From positions 1 to 34,950 of the forward strand of contig JAJCYI010000211.1 in assembly GCA_029263015.1 (NCBI GenBank): DNA of 34,950 nucleotides, in the 5' to 3' direction. The notes beneath the pieces were generated by a model, which had not been told where the DNA came from, did no database searches, and worked only from the letters and a program-made list of their open reading frames with translations. This stretch comes from Saprospiraceae bacterium (GTDB lineage: Bacteria; Bacteroidota; Bacteroidia; Chitinophagales; Saprospiraceae). Each line of letters starts with the position of its first letter. Position 1 is the stretch's first letter. Shown here piece by piece: positions 1 to 34,950 of this stretch. The translations under genes were made by a program, and so were the position numbers.

Positions 1-1901
1 TGGCGAACACAGAAACTACAACCGAAGACACCCGCATGCCCCTGACTTCCGCCGATGTACTCGGCGGGCGGATGGAGCAGTTGCGAGAATTGTTCCCGGA
101 AGCGTTTGTCGAAGGGGCGGTTGATTTTGACCGGCTGCGGAATGCCTTGGGCGACTTTGTTGGCGAAGGGCGGGAGCGGTACGGGCTTTCTTGGGCGGGG
201 AAGGCCGATGCGATTCGGGCGATTCAGGCTCCGAGCGTCGGGACGCTTGTGCCCTGCCCGGAGGAGTCGGTCAATTTTGATACGACTGAGAATCTGTTCA
301 TCGAAGGCGACAATCTTGAAGTTCTCAAGCTCTTGCAGAAGAGCTACTACGGCAAAGTGAAAATGATTTACATCGACCCGCCGTACAACACGGGCAACGA
401 GTTCATTTACCCGGACAACTTTCGAGAAGGGCTTGATGAGTATCTGAAATACTCTGGTCAGGTCGGCGAAGAGGGCGTCCGCATGTCGACGAATGCCGAA
501 ACGTCAGGTCGATACCATTCCAAGTGGCTCGACATGATGTATCCAAGATTGTTCTTGGCTAGGAATCTACTCAAGCAAGATGGCATCATCTTCGTTTCCA
601 TCGACGACCATGAAGTTCACAATCTCCGCTTGTTAATGAACGAGGTTTTCGGAGAAGAAAACTTTGTCGCATCTGTAATATGGCAAAAGGTGTTTTCTCC
701 AAAAAATACGGCCCGCTACTTTTCAGAGGACCATGATTATGTCCTTGCGTATGCACGAGACAAAGACGCATGGGCACCTGCTCTCCTGCCACGTTCCAAA
801 GAAGCAGAATCTCGTTACTCTAATCCAGACAATGACCCACGCGGGCCTTGGACATCCAGCGACCTTTCGGCAAGAAATTATTATGCTGCGGGCACTTACC
901 CAGTCACAACTCGTACGGGGCGTGTGATTACTGGCCCAGCAGCGGGTCGGTATTGGTCGGTGGCCGAAGACAAGTTCAGCAAGCTTGATGACGATGACCG
1001 CATTTGGTGGGGTGAAGATGGCGACAATATGCCTCGTCTAAAGCGATTCCTAACTGATGTTAAGGAAGGAGTTGTGCCACAGACGTTGTGGAAATACGAG
1101 GATGTTGGTCATACGCAAGAAGCCAAGAAAGAGTTGGTGAAGTACACCGCCTTCACGGAGACCGAGAACGTCCTTAACTCTGTGAAGCCAACTCGCCTCA
1201 TTCAGCGAATGCTTCAAGTCGCCACGCGACCGGCAGACAACGACATCGTCCTCGACTTTTTTGCTGGTAGTGCCGTAACAGGCCACGCTGTTATGAAGCA
1301 GAATCTGGCTGACGAGGGTAATCGACGTTTCGTTCTCGTCCAGCTACCTGAACCACTCCCCAAACCCGAACAAGGCTTGAACACAATTTACGACATGGGA
1401 GCAGCACGACTGCGAAATGTCACTAATGAAATCACTACAGATGAGAATGGCAAACTTGAAGGTGTCACCTCAACAGAACTATTGCCGTTGTTAGGCTTTC
1501 GCAAATTGAAGCTCACAGAAAGCAATTTCAAGATTTGGGACGGCAGCGAGGAGCCAACCCCCGAAGCATTGCAGGAACAACTCCAACTCTTCGCCGACCA
1601 CGTCCTGCCCGACCGTTCGGAACAAGACATCCTCTACGAGCTAATGCTCAAGGCAGGACTCTCGCTCACGGCCTCCATCGAGGAGAAGACGGTCGCCGAC
1701 CAGAAGGTCTACTCGATTGCCGAGGGGCTGTTGTTCATTTGCCTAGCCAACCCCATCACACAAGAGTGCCTTCGCGGCATGGCCGAACTGGAGCCGCAGC
1801 GAGTCATTTGCCTCGACGCAGCCTTCGGCGGCAACGACCAACTAAAAACCAACACCGTCCTAGAAATGAAATCCCACGGTATCGAATTCCGGACTGTGTA
1901 A
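1..1901 (+). CDS. mod: Type III restriction-modification methyltransferase (Mod), 5' end cut by one base
   Basis: Mod is the DNA adenine-N6 methyltransferase and specificity subunit of a type III restriction-modification system; it acts with Res. Counting from the ATG at 36, the catalytic motif DPPYNTG is near residue 114 and the SAM-binding FAGSAVTGH motif near residue 408, which is the beta-class order (catalytic motif first). Length (about 620-635 aa) is normal for Mod. The frame is open to base 1 and reads ANTETTTEDTR before the ATG at 36. Base 1 onward is 'tggcg', so the real start is probably an ATG whose A lies just outside the window. The variable middle (residues about 190-390) is where target recognition should lie. 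It heads an operon with two unknown genes and res. Family call is firm; exact start is inferred. Confidence 0.95.
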   Translation, partial: ANTETTTEDTRMPLTSADVLGGRMEQLRELFPEAFVEGAVDFDRLRNALGDFVGEGRERYGLSWAGKADAIRAIQAPSVGTLVPCPEESVNFDTTENLFIEGDNLEVLKLLQKSYYGKVKMIYIDPPYNTGNEFIYPDNFREGLDEYLKYSGQVGEEGVRMSTNAETSGRYHSKWLDMMYPRLFLARNLLKQDGIIFVSIDDHEVHNLRLLMNEVFGEENFVASVIWQKVFSPKNTARYFSEDHDYVLAYARDKDAWAPALLPRSKEAESRYSNPDNDPRGPWTSSDLSARNYYAAGTYPVTTRTGRVITGPAAGRYWSVAEDKFSKLDDDDRIWWGEDGDNMPRLKRFLTDVKEGVVPQTLWKYEDVGHTQEAKKELVKYTAFTETENVLNSVKPTRLIQRMLQVATRPADNDIVLDFFAGSAVTGHAVMKQNLADEGNRRFVLVQLPEPLPKPEQGLNTIYDMGAARLRNVTNEITTDENGKLEGVTSTELLPLLGFRKLKLTESNFKIWDGSEEPTPEALQEQLQLFADHVLPDRSEQDILYELMLKAGLSLTASIEEKTVADQKVYSIAEGLLFICLANPITQECLRGMAELEPQRVICLDAAFGGNDQLKTNTVLEMKSHGIEFRTV

Positions 1902-2040
1902 GGAGCAAAGATTATCAAGACAACACCAAACGTGTTGTAAATAACGCGAACCGCCGTGACGACTTGCCTGTTATTGGATATCCGCCTCAACCGGCATGCA
2001 CACCATACCATCACACAACACTGGAAAGAGAGGACTAAGT

Positions 2041-3237
2041 ATGAGTGAACAGAATACCATCCGGCCTCTAGGTCATAATCTACTGGTGCAAAAACTCGAA
2101 CGCGAGCAAAAGGCGGGGCAAATAGTTCTACCTCAAGATACTTGCAGCTTTGAGCGTGCCATCGTTCTTGAGGTGTCGAGAGAGTTGTTTCCTGACACGC
2201 CTTACAATCAGCAGCCGGTCCGTGTGGGCGATATAGTCTTGTATGTGAAAAACGCCGACCAAGTGGTAGCGATTGGGGGGAACGATTATTTCGTTCCATT
2301 AGCTGCCGTCTCGGCTGTCGAATCAGAGAAGTGTATTCCTGAAGATGTCCTTGGAGCTGAGTCGTTCTTCAAGGTACGAGAATGGCCCGAGTTCGTGCCA
2401 AGAGGAAGCGAGGGCATTTGGCAGAAATGGGAGAACTTTAAGGAATTCAGCTTCGACATCGGATTCATGGAGCCATTTGCGTCTCTTGACCCGTTCCGAG
2501 AATCGATTTATGAGAGTTGTGCCAATGTCATTGGCCCATATGTTACTGAAATAATGGACCCGTTTGAGCTCAAACGGGCCGCTGCCAACGAGGAGAGTTC
2601 TGGACCGGATGAGCCTATAACCGTCATCGAATGCGACCATGACGTCTTCGACGGCGTAATGTACCTCTCTGAGAAAGATAAACGCTTTGGATTCAGGAAA
2701 CAGCGGACGACACTCGAAGCCTTGGTTAAAAGTGTTCCGGTATGGATGAAGGCTGTGCATTCGATTCTACGCAGTTCACCTTTCGTCTCCTTAGTGCGTC
2801 CCGACTACTCACGGATATTATTTGCACGCTTTGGGTTCAAGCAAGTCATCCATCTTGAAAGCGAAGGTTCGGACAAAGACAAAATCCAAAACTCACAGCT
2901 CATGGGGCATTTTATGAGATTTGGCCTTGACGACAACTCTCCGCTGTCACCAACCATCGCGAAGCTAGGGTGTGAGTCGATTGGCAGGTCCGATGTGAAA
3001 TTCTCTTTTCAAAGGAAAATCGGAAACACACCCTACACCATTTGGTTTACAGCAAAAGCTCCACTGAATGAGGGGGCACGTTTCATTGAAATAGAGTGGG
3101 ACATTCAAGACATCCGCCCGGAAAACATTCTCGATAAAGATTATGGCGAGGTTCTGGATAATTTCCTTCGACTTACCGTCTGCAGCGAGTTTTACTCCAC
3201 ATGGTTCAAAAACATCAATTGCCATTCACTCATCTAA
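2041..3237 (+). CDS. GroES-like domain fused to a ~300-residue unknown domain
   Basis: Start chosen at 2041 because GAGAGG sits 8-13 bases upstream; an earlier in-frame ATG at 1996 has no ribosome site. Residues about 5-100 look like a co-chaperonin (Cpn10/GroES) fold: IRPLGHNLLVQKLE at the N-terminus, a GQIVLP segment, VRVGDIVLYVKNAD, then GGNDYFVPLAAVSAVES, in the order expected for GroES. The remaining ~300 residues are unrecognised. They include an acidic hinge (EESSGPDEP) and a C-terminal beta-rich part ending in FIEIEWDIQDI and an aromatic tail. No membrane segment or catalytic motif is visible. It lies between mod and res, 10 bases before the next gene, so it is probably co-transcribed with the restriction system. 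Whether the GroES-like part binds a chaperonin is unknown. Confidence 0.8.
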   Translation: MSEQNTIRPLGHNLLVQKLEREQKAGQIVLPQDTCSFERAIVLEVSRELFPDTPYNQQPVRVGDIVLYVKNADQVVAIGGNDYFVPLAAVSAVESEKCIPEDVLGAESFFKVREWPEFVPRGSEGIWQKWENFKEFSFDIGFMEPFASLDPFRESIYESCANVIGPYVTEIMDPFELKRAAANEESSGPDEPITVIECDHDVFDGVMYLSEKDKRFGFRKQRTTLEALVKSVPVWMKAVHSILRSSPFVSLVRPDYSRILFARFGFKQVIHLESEGSDKDKIQNSQLMGHFMRFGLDDNSPLSPTIAKLGCESIGRSDVKFSFQRKIGNTPYTIWFTAKAPLNEGARFIEIEWDIQDIRPENILDKDYGEVLDNFLRLTVCSEFYSTWFKNINCHSLI

Positions 3238-3247
3238 GGAGTCTTTA

Positions 3248-3964
3248 ATGTCAAATGAAATCACACTTTATCTACCTCCACCACCACCTTCTATTCGCCC
3301 ATCACTACAAGGAGCAGCAAGCCAGATCAAGTTTCTCTCCGGATTTGTAACAACGTACGTAGCTAGGCAGGCGAAGAAAAGAGATGCTGATATTCAAAAG
3401 TTTGCCTCCGATGTAATTGAGACGATTAATGACCAATGTCGGAAAGTCAAGGAACTTGACGAAGCAGTTCACAACAAGGTTGATGATGAGCACTTCTGGA
3501 GCGATGAGTTCTTCGACCGCTTCAGAGCGACCACAGAACATCATGCCAGCTCGCCGGATGAGAAAAAGAGAAAGTACCTGATTGACTTCGTGTTTCGGTA
3601 TGCACTTGAGAAGCGTCCCGACGTTATCCTGGAGAGGATATTCTGGCGTTACGTGTCGGGAATAACAGGAACGCATCTTGTCATATTGGACGAACTCTAC
3701 GCCAAACAGGCTGAATTGAACACGGCGGACCTTTCAGTGCTTCGGACATCACCGGGAAGGCCAGAACTTGTGTCGCTGAAGCAACTTTCACATTCAGTGT
3801 GCGAAGATGATATCCTGCTCCAATGCTTGCTAGCTGATTTGAAGCGGGATGGATTAGTTGAGCAAATCGCCGGTCCGGTCAATCATGAGGATTCCAGCAA
3901 CCGTGTTTTGCTTCAGCCACCGGGGCACAGCCTCATGCGATTCATATTTGGCGATTGGGAATAG
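3248..3964 (+). CDS. Unknown protein embedded in type III RM operon
   Basis: Start at 3248 is supported by AAGGAG 5-10 bases upstream, overlapping the end of the preceding gene; a longer in-frame extension from 3143 would overlap that gene. The 238-residue product begins with a proline-rich stretch (LPPPPPSIRP). It then has a helical region rich in charged residues, including a SSPDEKKRKYLIDFVFRYAL segment and a hydrophobic helix around TGTHLVILDELYAKQ. The C-terminus (LLADLKRDGLVEQ, then NRVLLQPPGHSLMRFIF) resembles a winged-helix tail. I do not recognise the family. A specialised partner of the restriction system, or an unrelated cargo gene between mod and res, are both possible. Confidence 0.75.
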   Translation: MSNEITLYLPPPPPSIRPSLQGAASQIKFLSGFVTTYVARQAKKRDADIQKFASDVIETINDQCRKVKELDEAVHNKVDDEHFWSDEFFDRFRATTEHHASSPDEKKRKYLIDFVFRYALEKRPDVILERIFWRYVSGITGTHLVILDELYAKQAELNTADLSVLRTSPGRPELVSLKQLSHSVCEDDILLQCLLADLKRDGLVEQIAGPVNHEDSSNRVLLQPPGHSLMRFIFGDWE

Positions 3965-3988
3965 AGAGATGTACATAGGCCCCTGCAT

Positions 3989-6619
3989 ATGAAAATTCAA
4001 TTCGACAGCAATCAGGAATACCAACTCGACGCCATCCAGGCGGTCGTCGATGTATTTGACGGCCAGCCGTTGGCTCAGGGCGAATACGAGATTCGCTTTG
4101 ACGCAGTGGGTGGCGACTTACTGACCGACTTAGGCGTCGGTAACAACGTGGTCCTCGACGAGAGCCGCATTGTCCAAAATATCCAAGCCATCCAGCAGCA
4201 GAACGACATCAAGCCTCCGGTCGAAGACCTTTCTCAGGGAATGAACTTCTCGGTCGAGATGGAAACCGGCACCGGTAAAACGTACGTCTACTTACGCAGC
4301 ATCTATGAATTGAACAAGGCGTATGGCCTCAAGAAGTTCGTCATCGTCGTACCGAGCGTCGCCATACGCGAAGGCGTGCTCAAGAACATCGAGTTGACTG
4401 AAGAGCACTTCCGAGCCATCTATGGCAACGTGCCCATCGACTATTGGGTCTACGACTCGAAACAAGTGTCGCGACTACGAGGATACGCCAACTCGAATCA
4501 AGTGCAAATTCTGATTATGAACATTGACGCCTTCAACAAGGACCTCAATGTGATTCACCAGGAGAACGACAAACTATCGGGCCGCAAGCCCGTTGAGTTC
4601 TTACAGGCAACCAACCCCATCGTCATTGTCGACGAACCACAAAACATGGAGAGTGAGCAGGCCAAAGCGGCCATCGATAACCTAAACCCACTCTGCACGT
4701 TCCGTTATTCGGCGACGCATCGGAACGTCTACAACCTGCTGTACCGGCTCGACCCGGTACGGGCCTACGACCTGAAGCTGGTGAAACGCATCGAAGTCGA
4801 CGCGATTCTCGACGAGCCCGACTTCAACAAGCCCTACATCCAGGTGAAGTCGGTCAAGGCGACCAAAGCGAAGATTACCGCCAAACTCGTCATCGACGTG
4901 GACACGAACGACGGGCCGAAGCGGAAGACAATCTCGGTCAGCAAGAACGGTACCGACCTATTCGACAAGTCCAACGAGCGGGCTGCCTACGAAGGCTACC
5001 TCGTTAATGAGATTGACGCTGGCAACGAGTACATCGCTTTCGGCAATGGCGTGACTCTCTACGCTGGCCAGACGCATGGAGGCCACTCCGATGACGTGAT
5101 GAAAGCCCAGATACGCGAGACGGTGAAGGAACACTTCGAGAAGGAGTTGCGAATTCAACGCACGCAGCCCGACGGCAAGAAGATGAAGGTGCTGTCGCTG
5201 TTCTTCATCGACCGTGTTGCCAATTACTTCCCTGAAGATGGCAAGATTCGCCAGTGGTTTGTGGAAGCCTACGAAGCGATTGCCAGCAAGTCGCAGTATC
5301 AGATGCTCAATTCTTTGCCGGTCGACCAGGTGCATAACGGCTATTTCGCGGTGACAAACACCGGCCAGGCAAAGGACAGTCGTGGTGAAGGGAAGACGAA
5401 AGCCGACGAGGAGGCTTACGAACTTATCATGCGAGACAAGGAGCGGTTGCTCGACCGTGATGAGCCGCTCCGCTTTATTTTCAGCCACTCCGCACTTCGC
5501 GAGGGATGGGATAATCCGAACGTGTTTCAGATTTGCACGCTCAACGAAACGAAATCCGAAATGAAGAAGCGGCAGGAGATTGGCCGTGGACTCCGATTAC
5601 CTGTTCGCGAGGACGGAACGCGGAGCTTCGACCCGCACATTAACCGGCTTACTGTTATTGCTAACGAAAACTACGACGACTTCGCCCGCAAGCTTCAGAC
5701 TGAAATTGAAGAGGAATGTGGCGTCGAATTTGAAGGACGCATTGCCAACAAGCGAGAACGCCGCCAGGCGATGCTTGTTCCCGGCTGGCGAATGAACGGC
5801 GACTTCCAAGAGTTATGGAACCGCATTCAACACAGGACGCGATACTCGGTCGCCTATGAGACCGCCGACCTTGTCGCCAAGGCATCCAACGAAGTCGGCA
5901 AGATGCCCGAAATCAAGAAGCCCAAGCTCGTCGCCCTGAAGTCGCGGATAAAGATTACCGACGAAGGCGTCACCGGCGAATTGCTGGCCGCCAGGCAGAT
6001 GGAGATGGAAGAGACGCAGCAGCAAACCATTCCCGACCTGCTGAGCTACTTGCAGCGAGAAACGGAACTGACGCGAAGTACGCTCGTCCAGATTCTCATT
6101 GAATCGGGTCGGCTTGGTGACGTGGCGACCAATCCGCAGCAGTTTCTCGACCAAGCTGTCTCCGGGGTGCGACGTACGCTTCACCAAATGATTGTCGACG
6201 GCATCAAGTACGAGAAGGTGAACGGCCAGGTCTACGAGATGCTCCTGTTTCAAGAGAAGGAAATCGAGGGCTACGCTAGCCGGATGGTCGACGTGGAGAA
6301 CGGGCTTTACGACTGTGTCGAAATTGAGTCGGAGGTCGAGCGAGAGTTCGCCGAGGCGATGACGAGCCGCCAGGACATCAAGCTGCTCATCAAGCTGCCC
6401 GATTGGTTCAAGGTGGAAACACCCATCGGCACTTACAACCCCGACTGGGCCATCGTCAAACAGGAGGACGAGAAGCTGTATCTCGTTCGTGAAACCAAGA
6501 GCACGAAGGAACAGCAGAAACTACGCCAAAGTGAGTGGGACAAGATTCGCTGCGGAAAAGCTCATTTCGATGCCCTTGACGTGGACTTCGACCACGTGAC
6601 CAGTGCCAGCGAAGTCTAG
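3989..6619 (+). CDS. res: Type III restriction enzyme helicase/endonuclease subunit (Res)
   Basis: Res translocates on DNA and cleaves unmethylated targets in complex with Mod. The superfamily 2 ATPase motifs are clear: Walker A ETGTGKT near residue 92, a DEPQ box near 215 followed by the type III signature FRYSATHRN, and motif VI QEIGRGLRLP near 529. A C-terminal PD-(D/E)XK nuclease is visible as YNPDWAIV near 815 with RETK near 835. At 876 aa it is in the normal size range for Res. The start ATG at 3989 has only a weak upstream purine stretch. It is the fourth gene of the RM operon, 24 bases after the previous stop. All motifs look intact, so the enzyme is likely active. Confidence 0.95.
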   Translation: MKIQFDSNQEYQLDAIQAVVDVFDGQPLAQGEYEIRFDAVGGDLLTDLGVGNNVVLDESRIVQNIQAIQQQNDIKPPVEDLSQGMNFSVEMETGTGKTYVYLRSIYELNKAYGLKKFVIVVPSVAIREGVLKNIELTEEHFRAIYGNVPIDYWVYDSKQVSRLRGYANSNQVQILIMNIDAFNKDLNVIHQENDKLSGRKPVEFLQATNPIVIVDEPQNMESEQAKAAIDNLNPLCTFRYSATHRNVYNLLYRLDPVRAYDLKLVKRIEVDAILDEPDFNKPYIQVKSVKATKAKITAKLVIDVDTNDGPKRKTISVSKNGTDLFDKSNERAAYEGYLVNEIDAGNEYIAFGNGVTLYAGQTHGGHSDDVMKAQIRETVKEHFEKELRIQRTQPDGKKMKVLSLFFIDRVANYFPEDGKIRQWFVEAYEAIASKSQYQMLNSLPVDQVHNGYFAVTNTGQAKDSRGEGKTKADEEAYELIMRDKERLLDRDEPLRFIFSHSALREGWDNPNVFQICTLNETKSEMKKRQEIGRGLRLPVREDGTRSFDPHINRLTVIANENYDDFARKLQTEIEEECGVEFEGRIANKRERRQAMLVPGWRMNGDFQELWNRIQHRTRYSVAYETADLVAKASNEVGKMPEIKKPKLVALKSRIKITDEGVTGELLAARQMEMEETQQQTIPDLLSYLQRETELTRSTLVQILIESGRLGDVATNPQQFLDQAVSGVRRTLHQMIVDGIKYEKVNGQVYEMLLFQEKEIEGYASRMVDVENGLYDCVEIESEVEREFAEAMTSRQDIKLLIKLPDWFKVETPIGTYNPDWAIVKQEDEKLYLVRETKSTKEQQKLRQSEWDKIRCGKAHFDALDVDFDHVTSASEV

Positions 6620-8264: not shown

Positions 8265-8507
8265 ATGAAGAAATCAAAGAGACGCAGCGGCGAGGCAGGA
8301 TGCCTCGCCGCTGCCATTAGAAATGCAGCCGGGCGGAGTGGACTGAGCGTTTATCGAATCGCCAAAGATGCTGGGGTCGACCAGTCGACCCTCAATAAAT
8401 TCCTCAATGGCGACCGAGATAATCTCCGCCTCGACGTAGCCGACCGGCTATTCCGCTTTTTTGGGCTGCGAGTCGTCTCCCAAACTGGCAAATCGAGAAA
8501 ACCGTAG
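8265..8507 (+). CDS. XRE-family helix-turn-helix regulator, small
   Basis: An 80-residue protein with a helix-turn-helix in the order expected for Cro/C1/XRE proteins: LSVYRIAKDAGVDQSTLNKF (recognition helix VDQSTLNKFLNG), then DNLRLDVADRLFRFFGL. It probably binds DNA as a dimer and may control its own operon, but no operator is evident. The start follows the preceding stop by three bases. The first 16 codons contain a perfect 11-bp palindrome, annotated separately. A terminator follows at 8578. Confidence 0.85.
   Translation: MKKSKRRSGEAGCLAAAIRNAAGRSGLSVYRIAKDAGVDQSTLNKFLNGDRDNLRLDVADRLFRFFGLRVVSQTGKSRKP
8287..8311. repeat. Perfect 11-bp hairpin inside the XRE coding sequence
   Basis: Two 11-base arms (8287-8297 and 8301-8311) around a GGA loop. 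The core GAGGCAGGATGCCTC (8292-8306) recurs exactly at 8523-8537 downstream of the gene. It could hinder translation or be an inserted palindromic element that stayed in frame. Confidence 0.8.
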
Positions 8508-8577
8508 ACGACTCGCTGCCCCGAGGCAGGATGCCTCCCAGTAAATTGCCGCGAAGCGACCACTCCCAGCCAATCGC

Positions 8578-8606
8578 ACCGCTGACAAGCAGCGGTTCGT
8601 TTTTTT
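8578..8606 (+). terminator. Intrinsic terminator of the 7544-8507 operon
   Basis: A 7-bp stem (ACCGCTG/CAGCGGT, loop ACAAG) followed by TCG and a run of T. It lies 70 bases after the XRE stop codon. Confidence 0.75.
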
Positions 8607-8651
8607 GATTCTTGCTGGCCAGAGGCCAGCATTTTTATTGCCCTTCGGGCG

Positions 8652-8695
8652 GCTCAAAAAAAGGGGGCCTCCAGCCCGGCCCCCTTTTTTTGAGC
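8652..8695. terminator. Bidirectional intrinsic terminator, 18-bp stem
   Basis: Perfect inverted repeat, with arms made of GCTC, seven A, then GGGGGCC on one side and the complement on the other, around an 8-base loop. The A and T tracts flank the G/C core, so it can terminate transcription from either direction, between the XRE operon and the minus-strand flagellin gene. Confidence 0.8.
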
Positions 8696-9163
8696 ACGAT
8701 ATGCAGAGCATATCTAATAAGGAAAATTGTCTTCTCAGAATACTCTTCATATGCTTCGAGCATTCTGAGAAGACAATTTATCCGGGCTTCCAGCACCTTG
8801 TGCTGGAAATGAGCTGACTCTCGTCAGCTCACCGTGTCGGCAGCCGCTCCAAGCGGTCGGCAAGAGCCACGCCAGCGAAGCTGTCATGCCCCTTGCTATT
8901 CGACCGCGTCGCGGCTGCCGCACGGCCCAGAGGTCCCTGTCAGGGAGGCAAAGGTGACGGCTGCGCCGTCCCATTTTCTCTCTCTCCCTGCCAGGGGAAA
9001 TCTCACACCCGATGCACCACGGTGGAGGTGCAGCTCGATTTTCCATCCTGCGACTAAGTGCCGCAGCGTCTAACCCGTTCGCAAACATTGAGCGAAACAA
9101 TTGTTATTCGGATGGCAGTGCGAGTGTCACATAGTGTGAACGGCTGTTACTAAGAAGTAGCAG

Positions 9164-11008
9164 CTACCCAAGCAACTGCAATGCCAAAGCGGGCTGTTGA
9201 TTAGCTTGCGCAAGGATTGAGCTTGCCGCCTGCTGCAAAATATTAAGTCTGGTTAAATTCGCAGCTTCTGATGCAATATCAGCATCCCGAATTCTTGATT
9301 CTGCAGCTTTGAAGTTTTCACTGGCGACAGTCAGCACATTTGTTGCCACCTCAATTCTTGCTTGATTTGCTCCGATTTCTCCTCGTTGAGCAGCGAGTTG
9401 TTCGCGTTTGCGCTTAAAGATTGGTAGGGCCTGGCGGGCGTCGGCTAGGGTTTTGAGAGAGAATTCTAGGAGTGGAGCAACACCTTCTATACTGGATCCT
9501 AGTAGTACCGACGTGTTGTTAGTAGTGACACTCCCTGTTACCAGGTCCAAGACTCCGTCTCCATCAAAATCGCCCGTTGCAATTGAGAAAGGGGTGGCGT
9601 CGACACTATACGTCACAGCAACTCCGAACCCACCGCTTCCATTCCCTAGCAGAACTGAAGTCTCTGCAGCTAAATCAGCTGTTGCCAAGTCCAGGCTTCC
9701 ATCTCCATTAAAATCGCCAATTGCAACTGCGACAGGAGTTACTCCGACAGAGTAGACGCCAGCTAAAGCAAAACCACCGCTTCCATCCCCTCGTAGCACT
9801 GATGTGGTGTTATCACCGGCCTCAGCTACTGCTAGGTCTAAGATTCCGTCTCCATCAATATCGTCTAATGCAACTGAGTAAGGATCTGTGCCAACACCAT
9901 ACGCGACCGCTGCCCCGAACCCACCGTTTCCAGTACCTTGTAACACTGAGATGGTGTCGTCGTCATAGTCAGCGGTTACTAGATCCAAGATTCCATCTCC
10001 ATTAACATCGCCCGTAGCAATTGATTTAATATTTGCCGCCACAGAAAAAATGGTAGCAGCACCAAACCCACCGCTTCCATCAGCTAGCAGCACGGAGAGC
10101 TCAGTAGCAAATACTACTAGGTCGTCAAACCCGTCTCCATTGAAATCTCCTGTTCTAATTCTACGAGGAAAACTATTTCCGACATCATAACGAGTAGCTG
10201 CTCCAAACCCACCACTTCCATCACCGATAAGAATCGACGTATCGCCAAGCTGATCTGCCGTGGCTAAGTCTAGAAAACCGTCTCCATTAAAATCGCCCGT
10301 TGCAACTTCGTAAGTATTTACCCCCGCGGCCGTATACGCTGTAGCAGCACCAAAACCACCGCTTCCAGTAGCTAGTAGTACTGATACGGTATCAGGACCT
10401 ACATCAGCTGTTGCCAGATCCGAGAGCCCATCGCCATTAAAATCACCTGTAATTACTGCCCAGGGAGACGTTCCCACATCGTAAGGGCTGTAACCGTCAA
10501 ACTCCCCAGTACCAATCGCCCCCCCAACAGAGGTCTGAAGTATCGCATCATCACCAACCCCAGCTTGAAGCGACACAATGGGATTTTCCCCGGTTAAAAG
10601 TTTTTGACCATTAAATTCCGTTACCTTAGAAATCCTAAAGAATTCATCTTTAAGTGCTTGCGCTTCACCGTCCAATGCCTTTCTCTGCTGGCCACTATAA
10701 ACCCCATTTGCAGATTGCACGGCAAGTTCTTCAAGGCGAATTACAATTGATGAAAGATTTTCAATTGCAGCATCAGCAATTACTAGAAGCGAGAGGCCAT
10801 CACCAAGATTTCTTACTCCTTGGTTAAGAATACGAGAATCAGCTTTTAAGGAATCAGCAATAGCAAGCCCAGCTGCATCATCCGATGCACGGTTAATCCG
10901 CTGCCCAGAACTTAGGCGCTCAAAGACTGTCCCCAGCTCATCTGAAGTCTTTGTTAATTGTCGCTGCCCGCGAAGGCTAGCTATGTTGCTTCCAAGCGTA
11001 ATACTCAT
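9164..11008 (-). CDS. Flagellin with a seven-repeat FG-GAP (beta-propeller) insertion
   Basis: Start at 11008 (MSITLGSNIASLRGQRQL) is preceded by AGGA; an upstream in-frame extension lacks flagellin character. Of 614 residues, about 1-160 are a flagellin N-terminal D0/D1 region (VFERLSSGQRINRASDDAAG is diagnostic). The last ~90 residues are the matching C-terminal D1/D0 region (RDADIASEAANLTRLNILQQ). Where flagellins normally carry D2/D3 there are seven repeats of GDFNGDGxxDLxTAD...SVLLGxGSGGFGxA, i.e. FG-GAP/VCBS calcium-binding blades. Seven such blades are what an integrin-alpha-like propeller needs. The product should be exported by the flagellar type III system and polymerise, with the propeller on the filament surface. 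No other flagellar gene is in the window. Confidence 0.92.
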   Translation of the reverse strand: MSITLGSNIASLRGQRQLTKTSDELGTVFERLSSGQRINRASDDAAGLAIADSLKADSRILNQGVRNLGDGLSLLVIADAAIENLSSIVIRLEELAVQSANGVYSGQQRKALDGEAQALKDEFFRISKVTEFNGQKLLTGENPIVSLQAGVGDDAILQTSVGGAIGTGEFDGYSPYDVGTSPWAVITGDFNGDGLSDLATADVGPDTVSVLLATGSGGFGAATAYTAAGVNTYEVATGDFNGDGFLDLATADQLGDTSILIGDGSGGFGAATRYDVGNSFPRRIRTGDFNGDGFDDLVVFATELSVLLADGSGGFGAATIFSVAANIKSIATGDVNGDGILDLVTADYDDDTISVLQGTGNGGFGAAVAYGVGTDPYSVALDDIDGDGILDLAVAEAGDNTTSVLRGDGSGGFALAGVYSVGVTPVAVAIGDFNGDGSLDLATADLAAETSVLLGNGSGGFGVAVTYSVDATPFSIATGDFDGDGVLDLVTGSVTTNNTSVLLGSSIEGVAPLLEFSLKTLADARQALPIFKRKREQLAAQRGEIGANQARIEVATNVLTVASENFKAAESRIRDADIASEAANLTRLNILQQAASSILAQANQQPALALQLLG

Positions 11009-11240
11009 ATCAAGTCCTGCATGCCGCTCCCAAACCGAGAGCAAACGCATGCAATATCGGACTCGCGATAAGCGCAGTAATTCTGTATGAAAATCCAGAT
11101 TCCGTTGCAAAGTAAAGAGCTTACTTCGCCATTTTAGAAGGCACTCTTAGTCCCTTCTTATCGAAATTAAGTGCCAAACGCTTCACAGTAGGCCTCTCTT
11201 TAGTTCACGACTTTTTAGCTTCTCGTGAAGCAAGACGACT

Positions 11241-14419: not shown

Positions 14420-15598
14420 TTAAGCCGCTACTTCTTTGGGCAAACAAAGACCCAGGATGAAGTTTTCGACCCGCTGAAATCCTTCTCGCTCCCACTCCTC
14501 TGTGCTGTGTCCATAGACTCGAACAGTAATTCTTTTGTCGTGAGCATGGCCGACCATGGCTTGCACCACCTGGACTGAAACTCCAGCTTGAAAGGCGTAG
14601 GTGATGAACGTATGCCTGAGCGTATGCATCGAAAATTCATTCGAAATGGACATAAAAGGAGTGTCTGCTGGAAGCCCCCGGCTGACCATTTCAGCCTGAT
14701 ACATGATGCGTCGAACCCAGGTCACAGGGCGTGCAGTGGATGGGTTTTCAAACACGTATTCTGCCCCGGCACGACCCACTTCTTTTCGCCTCTTGAGGAT
14801 TGAAAGCACGTAATCAGATAGGTAGACCCGTCGCTTTTTATTTCCCTTTCCAACAAAGGTCCACCTGCGGCCCTTGAGGCTGATATCTTCCCAGCGTGTG
14901 TGCTTTGCCGCGGTGCGTCTTGCACCAGTAAAGAGAGCAAACAGAATCAAATCTGAGAAAACGTCTTGGCTTTTTTCAAGCGTAGAGATGAACCCCCCGA
15001 GCTCATCTGGCTCAATAAATCTTTCCCGCCTGGGTATGTTGTATGTGCGGATTTGCTTTACGGGAGACCTCCCTGACCAGCCCCGCCTGATTGCAAAATT
15101 GTAGGTAGCTCGAAGGAGTTTAATCGTGTTGTTCGCCGCTCCGGTGCCCACCGTCTTTTTGATTTTGGCCTGAAGATCTATGACCATACCTGGGCTTATT
15201 TGCTGAAGGCGAAGCGTCTCAACTGCACTGAGATTTCGAAAGCAACGCTCAAAGAGTTTGACTGTCGCCAGGCGGCAGTTTCTGTCCAGCATATCCTCTC
15301 GGTACTTCTGCCAGGCGACCTCAAGTGTCTCCTTTCTGAGCGGGTCAACCTGGTCGACGGTAAGCCTTCGCTCTGTGGCCAGCTCCCGTGCCTCTTCGAG
15401 CCCTAGAGTTGGGAATTCCCCCAGGCGAACCCGCCTTCCTTTTAGCCCAATCAGATAAAAGGCTTTGTAGCCAGTTTGACTGACTCTAAACTCAAGACCT
15501 GGGCATTTAGCGTCATAGAAGCTTGCTCTTTTCTTCTTCTCTGAGTGAAGCTTCCATAGTCTTCCTTCGGTGAAGGCAAATTTGTTGTTTCTACCCAT
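14420..15598 (-). CDS. Tyrosine recombinase / phage-type integrase (first)
   Basis: A 392-residue site-specific recombinase with an excellent ribosome site (GGAGGA). The N-terminal ~75 residues resemble the P4-type arm-binding domain (YDAKCPGLEFRVSQTGYKAFYLIG). A SAM-like core-binding domain follows (residues about 85-190). The catalytic domain has Arg in FTGARRTAAKHTRW, Lys around GKGNKKRRVYL, HTLRH in MHTLRHTFITYA, GH in MVGHAHDKR, and the nucleophile Tyr in VRVYGHST. It is therefore complete. It is not next to a tRNA, and GGTCAAC repeats flank it on both sides. It could integrate or resolve the plasmid-like core. Confidence 0.93.
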   Translation of the reverse strand: MGRNNKFAFTEGRLWKLHSEKKKRASFYDAKCPGLEFRVSQTGYKAFYLIGLKGRRVRLGEFPTLGLEEARELATERRLTVDQVDPLRKETLEVAWQKYREDMLDRNCRLATVKLFERCFRNLSAVETLRLQQISPGMVIDLQAKIKKTVGTGAANNTIKLLRATYNFAIRRGWSGRSPVKQIRTYNIPRRERFIEPDELGGFISTLEKSQDVFSDLILFALFTGARRTAAKHTRWEDISLKGRRWTFVGKGNKKRRVYLSDYVLSILKRRKEVGRAGAEYVFENPSTARPVTWVRRIMYQAEMVSRGLPADTPFMSISNEFSMHTLRHTFITYAFQAGVSVQVVQAMVGHAHDKRITVRVYGHSTEEWEREGFQRVENFILGLCLPKEVAA

Positions 15599-27184: not shown

Positions 27185-27892
27185 TTAGGCTGCTAGTCGA
27201 TAAATATCAGATTCAAATGGCTCGAACGGCTTGACCGCCTTCCGTTTTACGCGGATGCACTGGTGCGGTACGAGTGGCAGACCGGCCATCTTGCGTGCCC
27301 GATTCACGGCACGCAGGACCGCGAACATTTGTCGCGTCACACCGCCGTAGGGCTCGAACGGCGAGCGATTGAATTCGCGTTCCATTCGTTCGGTCGACCG
27401 GCTCGCGGTTGCCTGCTGCAAGAAATGGCCCTTCAGTTCTCTGTACGCACGGCGACCGATTCGTACCGATGCTTTGCCGTTGTGACCAATCGAATAACCA
27501 CCAAAGCGAATCGGCGTTTCGCGGACATCCACGTATTGGCAAAGACGGCTGATGCCATCGCCCTCGAACTGTTCGTGCTCTTGAAAGAATCGGTGATAGC
27601 CGGTCGAGGCCAACAGAACCCAGAAGTTGCCGAAGCGAAGATACTGGACGTTCGCCAGCGGACGACCGTTTGGCCCGGTCCTCTTGGTTCGCCGATACCG
27701 CGACCACTTACTATGGGCCACGTCGAATTTTTCGAGAATTCTCCGGTCGTGCTCTTGCGTGGAAAGTCGCCCAGGAACTTGGCCGCTCACATAGAAGAAG
27801 TAGCGGCGAGCGACGTAGCCGACGGCCAATTGCTGAACAAAACCTTCCAGCGACGTGGCTTCCCACTTGTAGTTTGAATCTTTTTGCTTCAT
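27185..27892 (-). CDS. Basic, aromatic-rich protein of unknown function next to the hairpin array
   Basis: The convincing part starts at MKQKDSNYKW (27892); the frame is open to 28204, but that upstream part looks non-coding and overlaps hairpins. Of 235 residues, salient segments are GYVARRYFFYVSGQVPG, HSKWSRYRRTKRTG, NVQYLRFGNFWVLLASTGYHRFFQEH, IRFGGYSIG and RSPFEPYGGVTRQMFAVLRAVNRARKMAG. The protein is Arg/Lys-rich without a known catalytic motif, which fits nucleic-acid binding. From memory, similar hypothetical proteins occur in planctomycetes; I cannot confirm this. Ribosome site is weak (GGGA directly before the ATG). The ~1.4 kb hairpin array lies directly upstream on the same transcript strand. 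Confidence 0.65.
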   Translation of the reverse strand: MKQKDSNYKWEATSLEGFVQQLAVGYVARRYFFYVSGQVPGRLSTQEHDRRILEKFDVAHSKWSRYRRTKRTGPNGRPLANVQYLRFGNFWVLLASTGYHRFFQEHEQFEGDGISRLCQYVDVRETPIRFGGYSIGHNGKASVRIGRRAYRELKGHFLQQATASRSTERMEREFNRSPFEPYGGVTRQMFAVLRAVNRARKMAGLPLVPHQCIRVKRKAVKPFEPFESDIYRLAA

Positions 27893-28039
27893 TCCCGACA
27901 CCCACGATGCCATCACGGCATTTGGCTTGTTATGGGCGTTGGCCGAAAGATGTTGCACAAGAAGTGCCAGCCGCGTGAATCGTTGCGAGCAATGAGTCGG
28001 TATCACTCGCAGCGTGTATGTTCTTAGTTGGAAGTAGCC

Positions 28040-29440
28040 CAGTAAGAAGAAGTAGCGGCTGGTACAGCCGACGATAATTGTGGAAGAAAACTGAAGCGGA
28101 TGATTTGTTTGAGGCACAAACCATCCGAAAAGCCCGCTAACCTTGGAAACAAAAACAGTTGAGAGCCACTTCCCTGGGGAAGTCGCCCGAATCACTGCCT
28201 CCAATTGGTAGCCGTGTCGCTACAACCGCGTCACGCTCGTCAGCGACCAGGCTGAAGAGCGTGACACTCTGCTTGAGCTTTCACCCAAGGAAGTAGCGGT
28301 TGACCATACAAAGATGGCCAACCGCCGCGACTTTCTTGGACAGGCATAAAGCCCGTCGCCACTTTCGTCGTTGCTTGTGCCGGGTGGCACATCGGTGGTT
28401 ACCAGCCACCTGGAGCAAACGAGTCCGCACTGCCTTGCACGGAAGATTGCTGATGCAATCTCGAAGGGCCTTCGCCCTTCACATCGCCGAGACGTTTCGT
28501 CTCGCTTTCTACTTGTGGCACACTCCCACTCTTGTGGATTTCAAACACCTGGTTGACTTGACCAGGCACCGGGAGCTAATCCCCGGTCCCGCAAGAGCTT
28601 CCCTCTTTAGCCGTAGACATCGACTGTCAGTTGACGTTGGTAAGCAGCCCGAGGCTGCGACTTCTCGTGAGTACGTGCCCGCCGCCAAGCGGGTCGCAGT
28701 TTCCGGCGACTCCTTTGAGTCGCCGATTTCCCCTTGCGAACATACAAGCTCAGGGTATCCCTTCACGAAAAGTTGTCCCGATTCGGCACCGTCTCCTCAC
28801 AATCTAACGAGCAAGCCCTTACGGGCCTTTCATGGTTGAGCTATTCCCCGCCTGGTTTCCCAGGACGCCGAAGCTTGTCATCGCTCCGATACCGTGTGTC
28901 TCCACACGGCAAGTCCCCACGCTCGCAACGTTGCACCGTCCGCCAATGGCGGATTCAGGCCCCGTCGACAGGATTTTCACCTGTTTGCCTACGACGGCCT
29001 TCTGCGACTCGCATCGCACAAGGTTTTTCAGAGTCGCCCACGTTTCAATGTTTTGTTGGCGTTTTCTGTATCGGATAGAACTGTGAGATTACTCTGGTCG
29101 TGCGTTGCTTCGAGACAAAGAAAGCAACAACGCTCAGGATTAGTTCACAGAGCCTCCGTCGTTCCGGACAAGCCACTCTCATGGCATCCGGCTCTACGGA
29201 CAGGCAGCGTAAGAAAAAGCAAATTTCTTCCCTTAGCGTGGTTGGTTAGACCACGTTTACCGGGAGCTACCTCCTATCCAAGAAGTCGCTCTGCAAGCTG
29301 TTGCAGTTGGCGACGGTTTTCTTATGGAGCTGGCCACAACACATGTGACACAATCAGCAAAGATAAGTCACACGCACAGGTCATCCGCCATAACAGGCGA
29401 AACATTCAGTCAGGGGTGACATCGCTGCCCGGCAGACGTT
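28040..29440 (-). other. Hairpin array / candidate long structured RNA (array 2)
   Basis: About 1.4 kb without a credible gene holds roughly two dozen stem-loops with arms of 5-9 bp and loops of 3-8 bases, separated by 2-20 bases. Examples: 28056-28070, 28230-28265 (9 bp, 1x1 mismatch, 5 bp, 6-base loop), 28296-28325 (7 bp, 1x1 mismatch, 4 bp, 6-base loop), 28377-28390, 28445-28460, 28463-28480, 28488-28504, 28548-28566, 28569-28586, 28644-28658, 28678-28693, 28704-28725 (9 bp), 28851-28864, 28892-28909, 28939-28953, 28968-28984, 29164-29191, 29237-29255 and 29285-29314. Stem sequences are all different. On the minus strand three tetraloops are GNRA (GTAA, GAAA, GAGA). Strand is inferred from this and from the downstream minus-strand genes. 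Confidence 0.7.
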
Positions 29441-29499
29441 CTTGAGGAAGTTTGGCTACCGGTGGCGATGTTTTTCCCATTCATCATGGAGATATGTCT

Positions 29500-29856
29500 A
29501 TGTCACAGTTACCCTGCAAACGATTCTGGGAAGGCCCGGTGGGAATTATGTTGAAACCGCAAAAGCAACACAGCGGTGAATATTTTTGGACATTTTCCTT
29601 CACGCGAGCGTTCAAACGAAAGGGCAAGGAGTCCTGGGAGTACACCGGTTTCTTTGGGCATAAGCACGCTGCCGCTTTGGGCACCGTGATGAGCCGGGCG
29701 ATGCAGTTCATGGAGCAAAACGCTCCCGACCAGTTCACCGAAAAGTGGATGGCCGAGAAGTTGGCCGACAAAGCCGATGAATCTGCCCGCCAAGACGACA
29801 AGCAAATCGCCGACGGAGTCGGCAGCCTGGCCGAGGCTAGTATGCCGTCTGCTTAG
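29500..29856 (+). CDS. Small unknown protein upstream of the DUF932 gene
   Basis: ATG at 29500 is eight bases after GGAG; an ATG at 29494 is too close to it. The 118-residue product has an N-terminal aromatic part with a likely beta-sheet (GIMLKPQKQHSGEYFWTFSFTRAFKRKGKESWEYTGFFG) and a helical, charged C-terminus (KWMAEKLADKADESARQDDKQI). The beta part is reminiscent of small single-strand-DNA-associated plasmid proteins, but I cannot assign it. It starts a same-strand run with the genes at 30026 and 31115. Confidence 0.65.
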   Translation: MSQLPCKRFWEGPVGIMLKPQKQHSGEYFWTFSFTRAFKRKGKESWEYTGFFGHKHAAALGTVMSRAMQFMEQNAPDQFTEKWMAEKLADKADESARQDDKQIADGVGSLAEASMPSA

Positions 29857-33498: not shown

Positions 33499-34773
33499 TC
33501 ACTTCTTTTCTTTGTTCTTGCCGCCACCCAAGTCGGCCCTTCCCGATTTCAAGCACTTTCGGACCCACTCGACGATGGCTCGGTCTTCCGGGGATACGGG
33601 CTTCATATAAACGTCCGCCACTTGCGAACTCGCCGAGTGTCCCAGCCAACGCTTCATTTCGCCAATGGAGCAACCAGCACGGGACCCAAATTCCGTCGCT
33701 CCTAGATGGCGAAGCGAGTAAAACCCTCCCATACTCTTGCAGTCGTCTCCTAGCTTGGCACGCAATCTCGTCCACCAAAGACAAACCGAATCGCAATTAC
33801 CATGCACGAGCGGCATACCTGTCTCCGTGACGAACAGCAGGTCGCTTTCACTTCGACTCGTTTCGCGGAGATAGTTTTGAATTGCCCGCCAGACCATGGT
33901 CGGGGTCTCGCCGTATCGCTCGATGCCCGTCTTGCCTCGCCGTAGGTCGTAGCTCTTCTTATCGAATTGCTTAACTCGAACTTGGGCAAGGTCACGCTGG
34001 CCAAAACCACAGCCAATAGCCATCCAGACCATTGCCGAACGTTGCACATCACAACTCTGTAGGACCAACTTGAGTTGAGGCAGTGTTGGGAGCTTTCGCT
34101 GCTCGGCTGGTTTTCCATGGCTTATGTCGCGTGACCCCCAGTTCCATGAGAGCAACTGGCTCCCATGCTCTACTCGCCCAGCTCGGTCGATAATTGCCTT
34201 CACTAGACGAATACGCTTATTGACCTGAGAGGAGGAGTAGTCGGCTGTCACCAACAATCGGTTGTACGCCTCAATATCTTGCATAGTAAGGTCGGCCAAC
34301 ATCATCCGACCAGTAGCCCCTTGCCCGTAGCGAGAGTTCAAGAACTTAAGAAACTCTTGAGCAAACTGGTCTCTCGAATCAAAGGTCTTGCGAGTGATAG
34401 TTCCTCTTCGGCGAACTCCGTCATCAGCTCCAACCCGCGACTCTTCGTAGTCGAGGAATCCCGATGTGATATGCACAAGGCTTCCTTCAACGAATGCTGC
34501 ACCTACGCTACGTGGCTTCGGCTTGGAGGTCGCTATTTGTTGGTCGAGCTTTCTTCGGCTTGGCTTTGGTTTTTTGGCAGGAGTCTCGCCACGGAGGTGA
34601 GCAGCAACCCACTCGTGGTACTCGGACTCCGCTTCTTCCCGGCTCACCATTCCAAACCGCCGCCGCCGTGGAGTGCCTGTTTTCAGGTCGCGGTAGGAGA
34701 CGTGCCAGCCGATATTCTGGGTTTCGGTGTACTTTAACTGCGGAATCCGTTTCTTGCGGCGGTTTGCGGACAT
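33499..34773 (-). CDS. Tyrosine recombinase / integrase (second, tRNA-proximal)
   Basis: A 424-residue integrase. The N-terminal ~95 residues are basic, with an arm-binding-like WHVSYRDLKTGTPRRRRFG. The core-binding domain lies at about 115-240. The catalytic domain has Arg in CGFGQRDLAQV, Lys in RRGKTGIERYG, a box II Arg in FYSLRHLGAT (Tyr in place of the usual His at the HxxR position), His in RWLGHSASSQ and the nucleophile Tyr in DVYMKP. It is complete apart from the His-to-Tyr change. The gene starts 129 bases from a tRNA-Arg gene, and a small HTH gene converges on it. Confidence 0.92.
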   Translation of the reverse strand: MSANRRKKRIPQLKYTETQNIGWHVSYRDLKTGTPRRRRFGMVSREEAESEYHEWVAAHLRGETPAKKPKPSRRKLDQQIATSKPKPRSVGAAFVEGSLVHITSGFLDYEESRVGADDGVRRRGTITRKTFDSRDQFAQEFLKFLNSRYGQGATGRMMLADLTMQDIEAYNRLLVTADYSSSQVNKRIRLVKAIIDRAGRVEHGSQLLSWNWGSRDISHGKPAEQRKLPTLPQLKLVLQSCDVQRSAMVWMAIGCGFGQRDLAQVRVKQFDKKSYDLRRGKTGIERYGETPTMVWRAIQNYLRETSRSESDLLFVTETGMPLVHGNCDSVCLWWTRLRAKLGDDCKSMGGFYSLRHLGATEFGSRAGCSIGEMKRWLGHSASSQVADVYMKPVSPEDRAIVEWVRKCLKSGRADLGGGKNKEKK

Positions 34774-34901
34774 TGGTAAAATGCTCCGTCGGTCTTCGGT
34801 CTGAATTTCCTGTGATGCAACCCAACGATGAAACGGGCGTCACGGGCAATTGTAGTACGAGAATCCGAAGAAATGTAGTACGAGGCATCAAAAAAGCCCT
34901 T

Positions 34902-34950
34902 GTCCCCGTAGCTCAACTGGATAGAGCGTCGGCCTCCGAAGCCGAAGGTT
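34902..34950 (+). tRNA. tRNA-Arg (anticodon CCG), cut by window end
   Basis: Acceptor 5' strand GTCCCCG (34902-34908), D-stem GCTC/GAGC, anticodon stem TCGGC/GCCGA around loop CTCCGAA, giving anticodon CCG at 34936-34938. The T arm and 3' end lie beyond the window. Likely integration target of an element, since an integrase gene is adjacent. Confidence 0.9.

Follow-up and report, generated by a model that had tools for sequence, protein, structure and literature searches.

The Locus and Its Hairpins

The window, meaning the whole 34,950-nucleotide stretch of DNA analysed here, contains a densely folded region at 28040-29440, next to a small minus-strand gene that ends at 27185. Hairpins in this region are dense and exceed chance, as evaluated with 150-base tiles against dinucleotide shuffles; the mean tile z-score was -2.0 on the plus strand and -2.7 on the minus strand for the 10 tiles inside 28040-29440, and -0.6 on both strands elsewhere. 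The core at 28350-29280 folded on the minus strand at -399 kcal/mol against a shuffled mean of -334, which is 65 kcal/mol below the mean of the dinucleotide shuffles (z -7.7), and on the plus strand with a z-score of -5.6; 0/60 shuffles were as low on either strand. The excess of hairpins asserted in a preliminary description of this DNA was thus borne out. That description had also seen no reused repeat of the REP, CRISPR or attC kind, and the direct repeats within 28000-29500 indeed occur in no more than two copies, measuring just 12-20 nt at 70-92% similarity, which rules these elements out. Rfam gave no match within 28040-29440 at curated thresholds, and an AdoCbl-II riboswitch was rejected at 20.4 bits against a threshold of 36.5. 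The same description called the stretch free of genes, which is correct only in part: a TTG-started open reading frame (ORF) reaches into its left end up to 28204, though homologues set the start of that gene near ATG 27892. A second dense run of strong hairpins was observed at 8500-9060, with tile z-scores down to -10 and a nearly perfect inverted repeat of roughly 20 bp; tiles 8551-8850 score lower per tile than the array at 28040-29440.

A Minus-Strand RNA of the Circularly Permuted Group II Class

Circularly permuted (CP) group II ribozymes were described by Roth et al. (2021, PMC8637638), in whose main text the tested members excise a small circle from themselves. The traits given there are the domain order D5-D6-D1-D2-D3-D4, the splice signals GGGCG and NU, a D5 of five pairs with an AGC triad and a UN bulge, a bulged A in D6, and a P2-D2 loop-loop pseudoknot. 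Among open-licence PMC full texts, this was the only paper with a title on the class. The minus strand of the present stretch almost certainly encodes such a ribozyme, linked to a small partner gene. Sequence comparison shows the order of the domains, the signals at the splice sites, the covariation of the structure and where the partner lies. The predicted order, read 5' to 3' on the minus strand, is P2 - D5 - D6 - 30-nt exon - D1 - D2 - D3 - split D4, and the hairpin array is taken as a CP group II RNA because D5-D6 comes first, GGGCG follows after a linker of 30 nt, and a large domain comes next. The conserved RNA spans approximately 28351-29272. Its features, listed below, were drawn partly from alignment A6, which comprises 16 of 19 strong RNA copies, the window included, and leaves out G852 (the lowest-scoring), G864 (cut by a contig end) and Calothrix copy 1 (truncated).

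29202..29272, minus strand: P2-like 5' stem domain upstream of D5 (consensus helices; named after the published model)
29196..29201, minus strand: strand directly 5' of D5, pairing with 28351-28356; proposed base of the split D4 (covariation)
29161..29194, minus strand: D5 with AGC triad, GAGA tetraloop and UU bulge (RF00029 match; covariation in 8 aligned copies)
29070..29158, minus strand: D6 with bulged branch-point A 29076, ending ...CCGAU at the 3' splice site (RF00029; covariation)
29040..29069, minus strand: predicted 30-nt RNA circle, formed from the exon that the reversed splice sites enclose (bounded by the end of D6 and by GGGCG)
28603..29039, minus strand: D1, beginning GGGCG at the 5' splice site (consensus fold with covariation; domain ends approximate)
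28528..28598, minus strand: D2, a three-way stem with a CTCTTG/CAAGAG base (consensus fold; named by position)
28358..28519, minus strand: D3 (consensus fold; named by position)
28351..28356, minus strand: strand directly 3' of D3, completing the helix proposed for the base of D4 (covariation)
27893..28350, minus strand: variable 3' extension or distal D4 region (poorly conserved columns of A6; hairpins strong but unconserved)
27185..27892, minus strand: partner protein, 235 aa, a distant AcpG homologue with a predicted reverse-transcriptase-like palm-thumb fold (start taken from homologues)

The Rfam model of group II D5/D6 (RF00029) matched 29196-29070 of the window on the minus strand with 32.2 bits (E 6e-4) under permissive settings, a score below the Rfam threshold of 40. 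It scored above the threshold for plasmid pK2D_1 (49.4 bits) and Leptolyngbya pLBX (47.6 bits) and reached it in 5/8 further loci, and gave no match up to E 5-10 for the Calothrix copies, pTT8 and pPNAP05. The CP splice signals, NU before the exon and GGGCG after it, were present at the same boundaries in 16/16 aligned copies, delimiting predicted circles of 12-142 nt (30 nt in the window, 41 nt for pK2D_1 and 21 nt for Tautonia C87), and the D6 branch A was present in all 16 rows. The D5 triad reads AGC in 11 of the 16 rows, including the window, and CGC in the other five (Tautonia C76 and four cyanobacterial rows). The triad helix of the window contains A.A and G.A mismatches, of which A.A occurs in none of the other rows and G.A in two (G691 and G828); the window copy may be impaired on account of them.

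The structure was examined by covariation. With the pairing span limited to 450, the full-length A6 consensus contained 234 pairs, of which 178 showed double changes and 108 at least 3 Watson-Crick types, as compared with 109-133, 27-36 and 5-15, respectively, in five column-shuffled controls; these counts are tilted in favour of the structure, since shuffling disrupts runs of neighbouring columns and the fold was predicted from the same alignment. Double changes affected 15/29 pairs of D5/D6 in 8 aligned copies. The P2-like domain is composed of helices 29272-29266/29208-29202, 29264-29262/29233-29231 and 29230-29226/29215-29211, in which 14 of the 15 pairs change on both sides, with just 75% of the cells paired in the outer helix. 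This P2-like stem and D2 are both present, and the loop complementarity expected for a P2-D2 pseudoknot, inspected only by eye in A6, was without confirmation.

The preliminary description, which had argued from a minus-strand reading for a large structured RNA instead of random palindromes, was right in this respect, as the covariation in homologues attests. It was wrong in recognising no known large RNA, group II introns included: the RNA derives from a group II intron by rotation of the domains, D5-D6 coming first, and its class is already published (PMC8637638). Its three minus-strand GNRA loops (GTAA at 28819, GAAA at 28856 and GAGA at 28899) are present and sit in consensus helices of D1, and the two hairpins to which it ascribed a common architecture (28230-28265 and 28296-28325) both lie outside the conserved RNA, in the variable 3' extension.

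A covariance model, R1, was built from D5-D6-exon-D1 start of 8 sequences, none from a species named in the main text of PMC8637638. It detected an RNA on pPNAP05 with 38.8 bits (E 2e-9); according to that text, this plasmid has a CP group II RNA close to its origin that yields a 32-nt circle, and the exon marked by R1 is likewise 32 nt. On pTT8, R1 gave a weak match (17.1 bits, E 2e-4) with filters off and none with default filters.

A Covarying Helix at the Proposed Base of D4

When RNAalifold was run with unlimited pairing distance, the strand just before D5 (29201-29196) paired with the strand just after D3 (28356-28351). Across the 16 sequences 90/95 cells of this helix are paired, 11 rows pairing 6/6, the window among them, and 5 of the 6 pairs are double-changed. 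Sliding the partner strand by 1-6 columns left 51 or fewer cells paired, and 2000 partner shuffles peaked at 78, never reaching 90. In pPNAP05, a corresponding helix was looked for by eye and none was seen in an obvious place. Because the covarying helix sits where the base of D4 should be, we propose from these alignments that this lineage was permuted by a cut within D4. Canonical group II introns carry their protein gene in D4 (PMC8637638, main text). Judged by position, a D4 cut beside such a gene would leave the gene following D3/D4, which is where the partner lies.

The Partner Gene Is Linked in Cis and Is Related to AcpG

The partner was found on the same strand as the RNA in 17/17 strong loci with enough contig, starting approximately 990-1680 nt after the D5 start, with the start codons partly guessed. 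Seven of these loci had been found through DNA or the partner protein itself and ten through R1. In all ten testable R1-found copies the partner was directly downstream on the same strand; these are Tautonia C76 and C77 and Symploca C207, whose genomes had at first been selected through the protein, and G802, G856, G691, G588, G893, G828 and G852 from a phylum scan. The eleventh R1 copy, G864, is cut off by the contig end. Exceptions to the linkage are the truncated second Calothrix RNA copy, which has no partner of its own, and a Bryobacteraceae locus that has a partner but in which no D5/D6 was found.

Neither BLAST nor a 4-sequence profile matched the partner to a single AcpG, and the partner was accordingly first judged not to be AcpG, a verdict overturned by deeper profiles. 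In hhalign, the partner matched Thermus AcpG (TTHC007) with 91.6% (E 8e-7) over 170 columns, and one reversed and 15 shuffled controls gave at most 0.3%. These profiles point to the partner being a distant AcpG homologue. According to the main text of PMC8637638, the AcpG gene lies at times on the same strand as the RNA, is frequently divergent or convergent and is sometimes absent. Its link to the RNA, by the same text, may not be physical; AcpG is without known relatives there, and the role of CP ribozymes is given as unknown.

Distribution of the RNA and Its Partner

A single match (E 1e-5) came from a DNA search against plasmid records: pK2D_1, a MOBF plasmid from Planctomycetes bacterium K2D in which approximately 1.7 kb at the corresponding place lack a listed gene. 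Protein relatives of the left gene (searched as 27185-28204, minus strand) adjoin similar stretches in Leptolyngbya boryana pLBX and Calothrix plasmid5, and a profile of this protein added Tautonia sociabilis and metagenome-assembled genomes (MAGs) of Hydrogenedentota, Symploca and Bryobacteraceae. The window RNA is 58-60% identical to the Hydrogenedentota and Tautonia loci over approximately 800 nt (E 4e-28 and 2e-23).

Under strict filters, R1 gave strong matches (80-136 bits) in 9 of 343 planctomycete genomes, Tautonia among them, and weak matches alone (27-40 bits) in 27 more, making 36 matched genomes in all. The partner protein was found in 8 of the same 343 genomes, all among the 9 with strong RNA. 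The genomes with weak matches were taken to hold canonical introns: five such matches (29-33 bits; four from the planctomycete scan and one from the Bryobacteraceae genome) adjoin GIIM maturase domains and have D5 after the protein, which is the canonical order, and the rest were checked only by the absence of the partner there. The phage and viral collections gave no confirmed match.

The main text of PMC8637638 makes no mention of Planctomycetes, cyanobacteria, Hydrogenedentota or Acidobacteria, and relative to that main text the copies in Planctomycetota, Cyanobacteriota and a Hydrogenedentota MAG are new. Calothrix plasmid5 (L010 2449-3033 and 4600-5980) has a second, truncated CP group II copy that is 93.5% identical over 585 nt; Tautonia sociabilis (L068, L069 and L070) has three pairs of CP RNA and partner together with two partner fragments, one of its predicted circles being 142 nt long and outside the published range. 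Two partner fragments (45-57 bits) were found in G583. Bryobacteraceae L014 contains a partner and D1-D4-like sequence, with no D5/D6 found in its 4.9 kb, and is possibly a split or trans form.

The Contig as a Probable Mobile Element

The GC content of the window is 52.5%, as compared with 38-45% in 11 sampled stretches of the source assembly (G000), which by our reading carries a Bacteroidota-type rpoB. The gene content of the contig, with flagellin and planctomycete plasmid genes, differs from that of the assembly, and a type III restriction protein of the window is 86% identical to that of pK2D_1. A planctomycete element has probably been misbinned here, with horizontal transfer as a possible alternative. 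Searches among the relatives and the phylum of the assembly returned only the window itself and a match in G027, since the assembly is apparently Bacteroidota and the contig looks foreign; the G027 match was rejected as a homologue, being 36 bases in AT-rich DNA that looks unrelated.

The window is probably an integrative mobilisable element, because it has an integrase gene adjoining a tRNA gene that is cut by the window end (33499-34950), a second integrase (14420-15598), a TrwC-type relaxase and a coupling protein. It also carries at 36-6619 a type III restriction-modification cassette common to pK2D_1, at protein identities of 61% and 86%, in which cpn10-like genes and unknown ones lie in between, and at 9164-11110 one ORF in which flagellin N and C domains flank FG-GAP repeats.

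Proposed Reaction and Alternative Readings of the RNA

By analogy with published members, the bulged D6 A29076 would use its 2'-OH to attack the downstream 5' splice site before GGGCG at 29039, and the freed end would then attack the upstream 3' splice site after ...CCGAU at 29070. The expected products are a 30-nt circle (29069-29040) and a branched, T-shaped RNA, in which a 2'-5' branch would hold D5-D6 to D1-D3, and also to the partner mRNA should the two be co-transcribed. Less surely, the partner would be a reduced relative of the reverse transcriptase (RT) of group II introns that has lost catalysis and helps the RNA fold.

A canonical group II intron of normal domain order, either lacking an ORF or degenerate, would also account for the resemblance of D5/D6 to RF00029. 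This reading is refuted by the conserved order, as D5-D6 stands at the 5' end and is followed by GGGCG and D1-D2-D3 in 16/16 copies, whereas the five weak R1 matches next to GIIM domains, taken as canonical introns, show D5 after the protein; we regard it as extremely improbable. Hardly any weight is given, either, to a structured single-stranded DNA, such as an element of a conjugation leading region, even though the element carries the TrwC-type relaxase and has relatives on MOBF plasmids: a catalytic group II D5, splice-site signals and a branch A are present, and the minus strand surpasses the plus strand against shuffles.

A different question is whether the window copy is a CP ribozyme that has decayed, being non-functional and kept in this contig by chance. 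The A.A and G.A mismatches in its D5 triad helix suggest this, as does its RF00029 score, the lowest among the window, pK2D_1 and Leptolyngbya pLBX. Such decay is nevertheless rather unlikely, because the window retains the full-length structure together with both splice signals, pairs the D4 helix 6/6 and has an open partner ORF; moreover, the main text of PMC8637638 states that the triad adenosine forms no Watson-Crick pair in this class, and G691 and G828 share the G.A mismatch.

Predicted Fold of the Partner

AlphaFold models of the window and Tautonia proteins (pLDDT 82.6 and 84.0, respectively) were built on one set of six sequences, differently ordered, so that the two share an alignment and are not independent tests. 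The order of elements in the model is strand-helix-helix-hairpin-helix-strand-hairpin-three helices, which we take to fit the palm, primer grip and thumb of an RT. In a Foldseek search of 350,542 PDB chains, the first 11 places for the window protein and the first 10 for the Tautonia protein were all group II intron RTs, G2L4 RT and retron RTs, the best matches having E 2e-3 and 3e-3 and probabilities of 0.99 and 0.97 with TM-scores below 0.5. At lower places HIV RT, viral RNA polymerases and retrons recur amid unrelated folds. A viral library gave no match at E 0.001 (best 0.029); among the 50 matches listed many are nameless, and many of the named ones are RNA polymerases or replicase polyproteins. 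A conserved partner segment, Y-L/I-R-F/Y-x-R/N-x-F-V/I-L-L, resembles by eye RT motif C without its aspartates. A Pfam RT (RVT_1) or GIIM maturase match was found in none of 18 partner members, and hhalign of the partner against 15 canonical intron proteins scored 16.2, which is within the range of 40 shuffles (top 19.7); with this sequence profile negative, the link to RTs is one of fold.

The models suggest that the partner may be a shrunken remnant of the enzyme normally carried by group II introns. It is conceivable, at somewhat less than an even chance in our estimate, that AcpG-type partners descend from group II intron RTs as dead, miniaturised proteins kept as maturases, and that the CP class arose from a D4 cut beside the gene; the arrangement D4(3')-D5-D6-exon-D1-D2-D3-D4(5')-protein would then be a simple rotation, turning a retroelement into a resident circle-making ribonucleoprotein on mobile elements. 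The partner could instead be unrelated to RTs, another RNA-binding protein with a ferredoxin-like core and helices. The latter reading, which we also hold to be plausible without being probable, agrees with the lack of support from sequence profiles, TM-scores below 0.5 and the absence of any Foldseek E below 1e-3; on the other hand, both models rank only group II and retron RTs in their first PDB places, with other palm polymerases scattered among unrelated folds at lower ranks.

Comparison with Known Systems

The present copies share with the published CP class (PMC8637638, main text) the domain order, GGGCG and NU, the UN bulge of D5, a short exon between reversed splice sites, a frequent plasmid location, a linked AcpG-type gene and the lack of an RT gene inside. 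They apparently form a separate CP lineage: with R1, a model to which eight of them contributed, they score 80-146 bits, as against 38.8 for the published pPNAP05. At every testable locus here, the partner follows the RNA directly and is encoded on its strand, and the predicted circles of 12-142 nt extend beyond the 15-86 nt of the main text. With the linkage tight and in cis in this apparently separate lineage, the permutation point placeable in D4 and a testable candidate for the structural ancestor of the partner, the questions of the rotated RNA and of AcpG become concrete experiments, and well-linked RNA-protein pairs with small predicted circles become available for circular-RNA work.

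Canonical group II introns have D5/D6 and the catalytic signals in common with these RNAs, in which the order is rotated, no RT gene is recognisable and the whole RNA is not excised. The Thermus plasmid AcpG matches the partner between profiles over the 170 columns noted above, yet has no pairwise BLAST similarity to it, and the Thermus gene is upstream and divergent of its RNA (PMC8637638, main text). The RT/maturase of group II introns resembles the partner in the predicted palm-thumb-like fold and, the permutation being allowed for, in the D4 position of the gene; it differs in size (235 aa for the partner against 418-645 in 15 proteins), in the aspartates missing from the motif C-like segment and in the absence of profile similarity. 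What is new here with respect to these systems is the tight cis linkage to an AcpG-type gene, the covarying D4 helix and the partner models that match group II and retron RTs.
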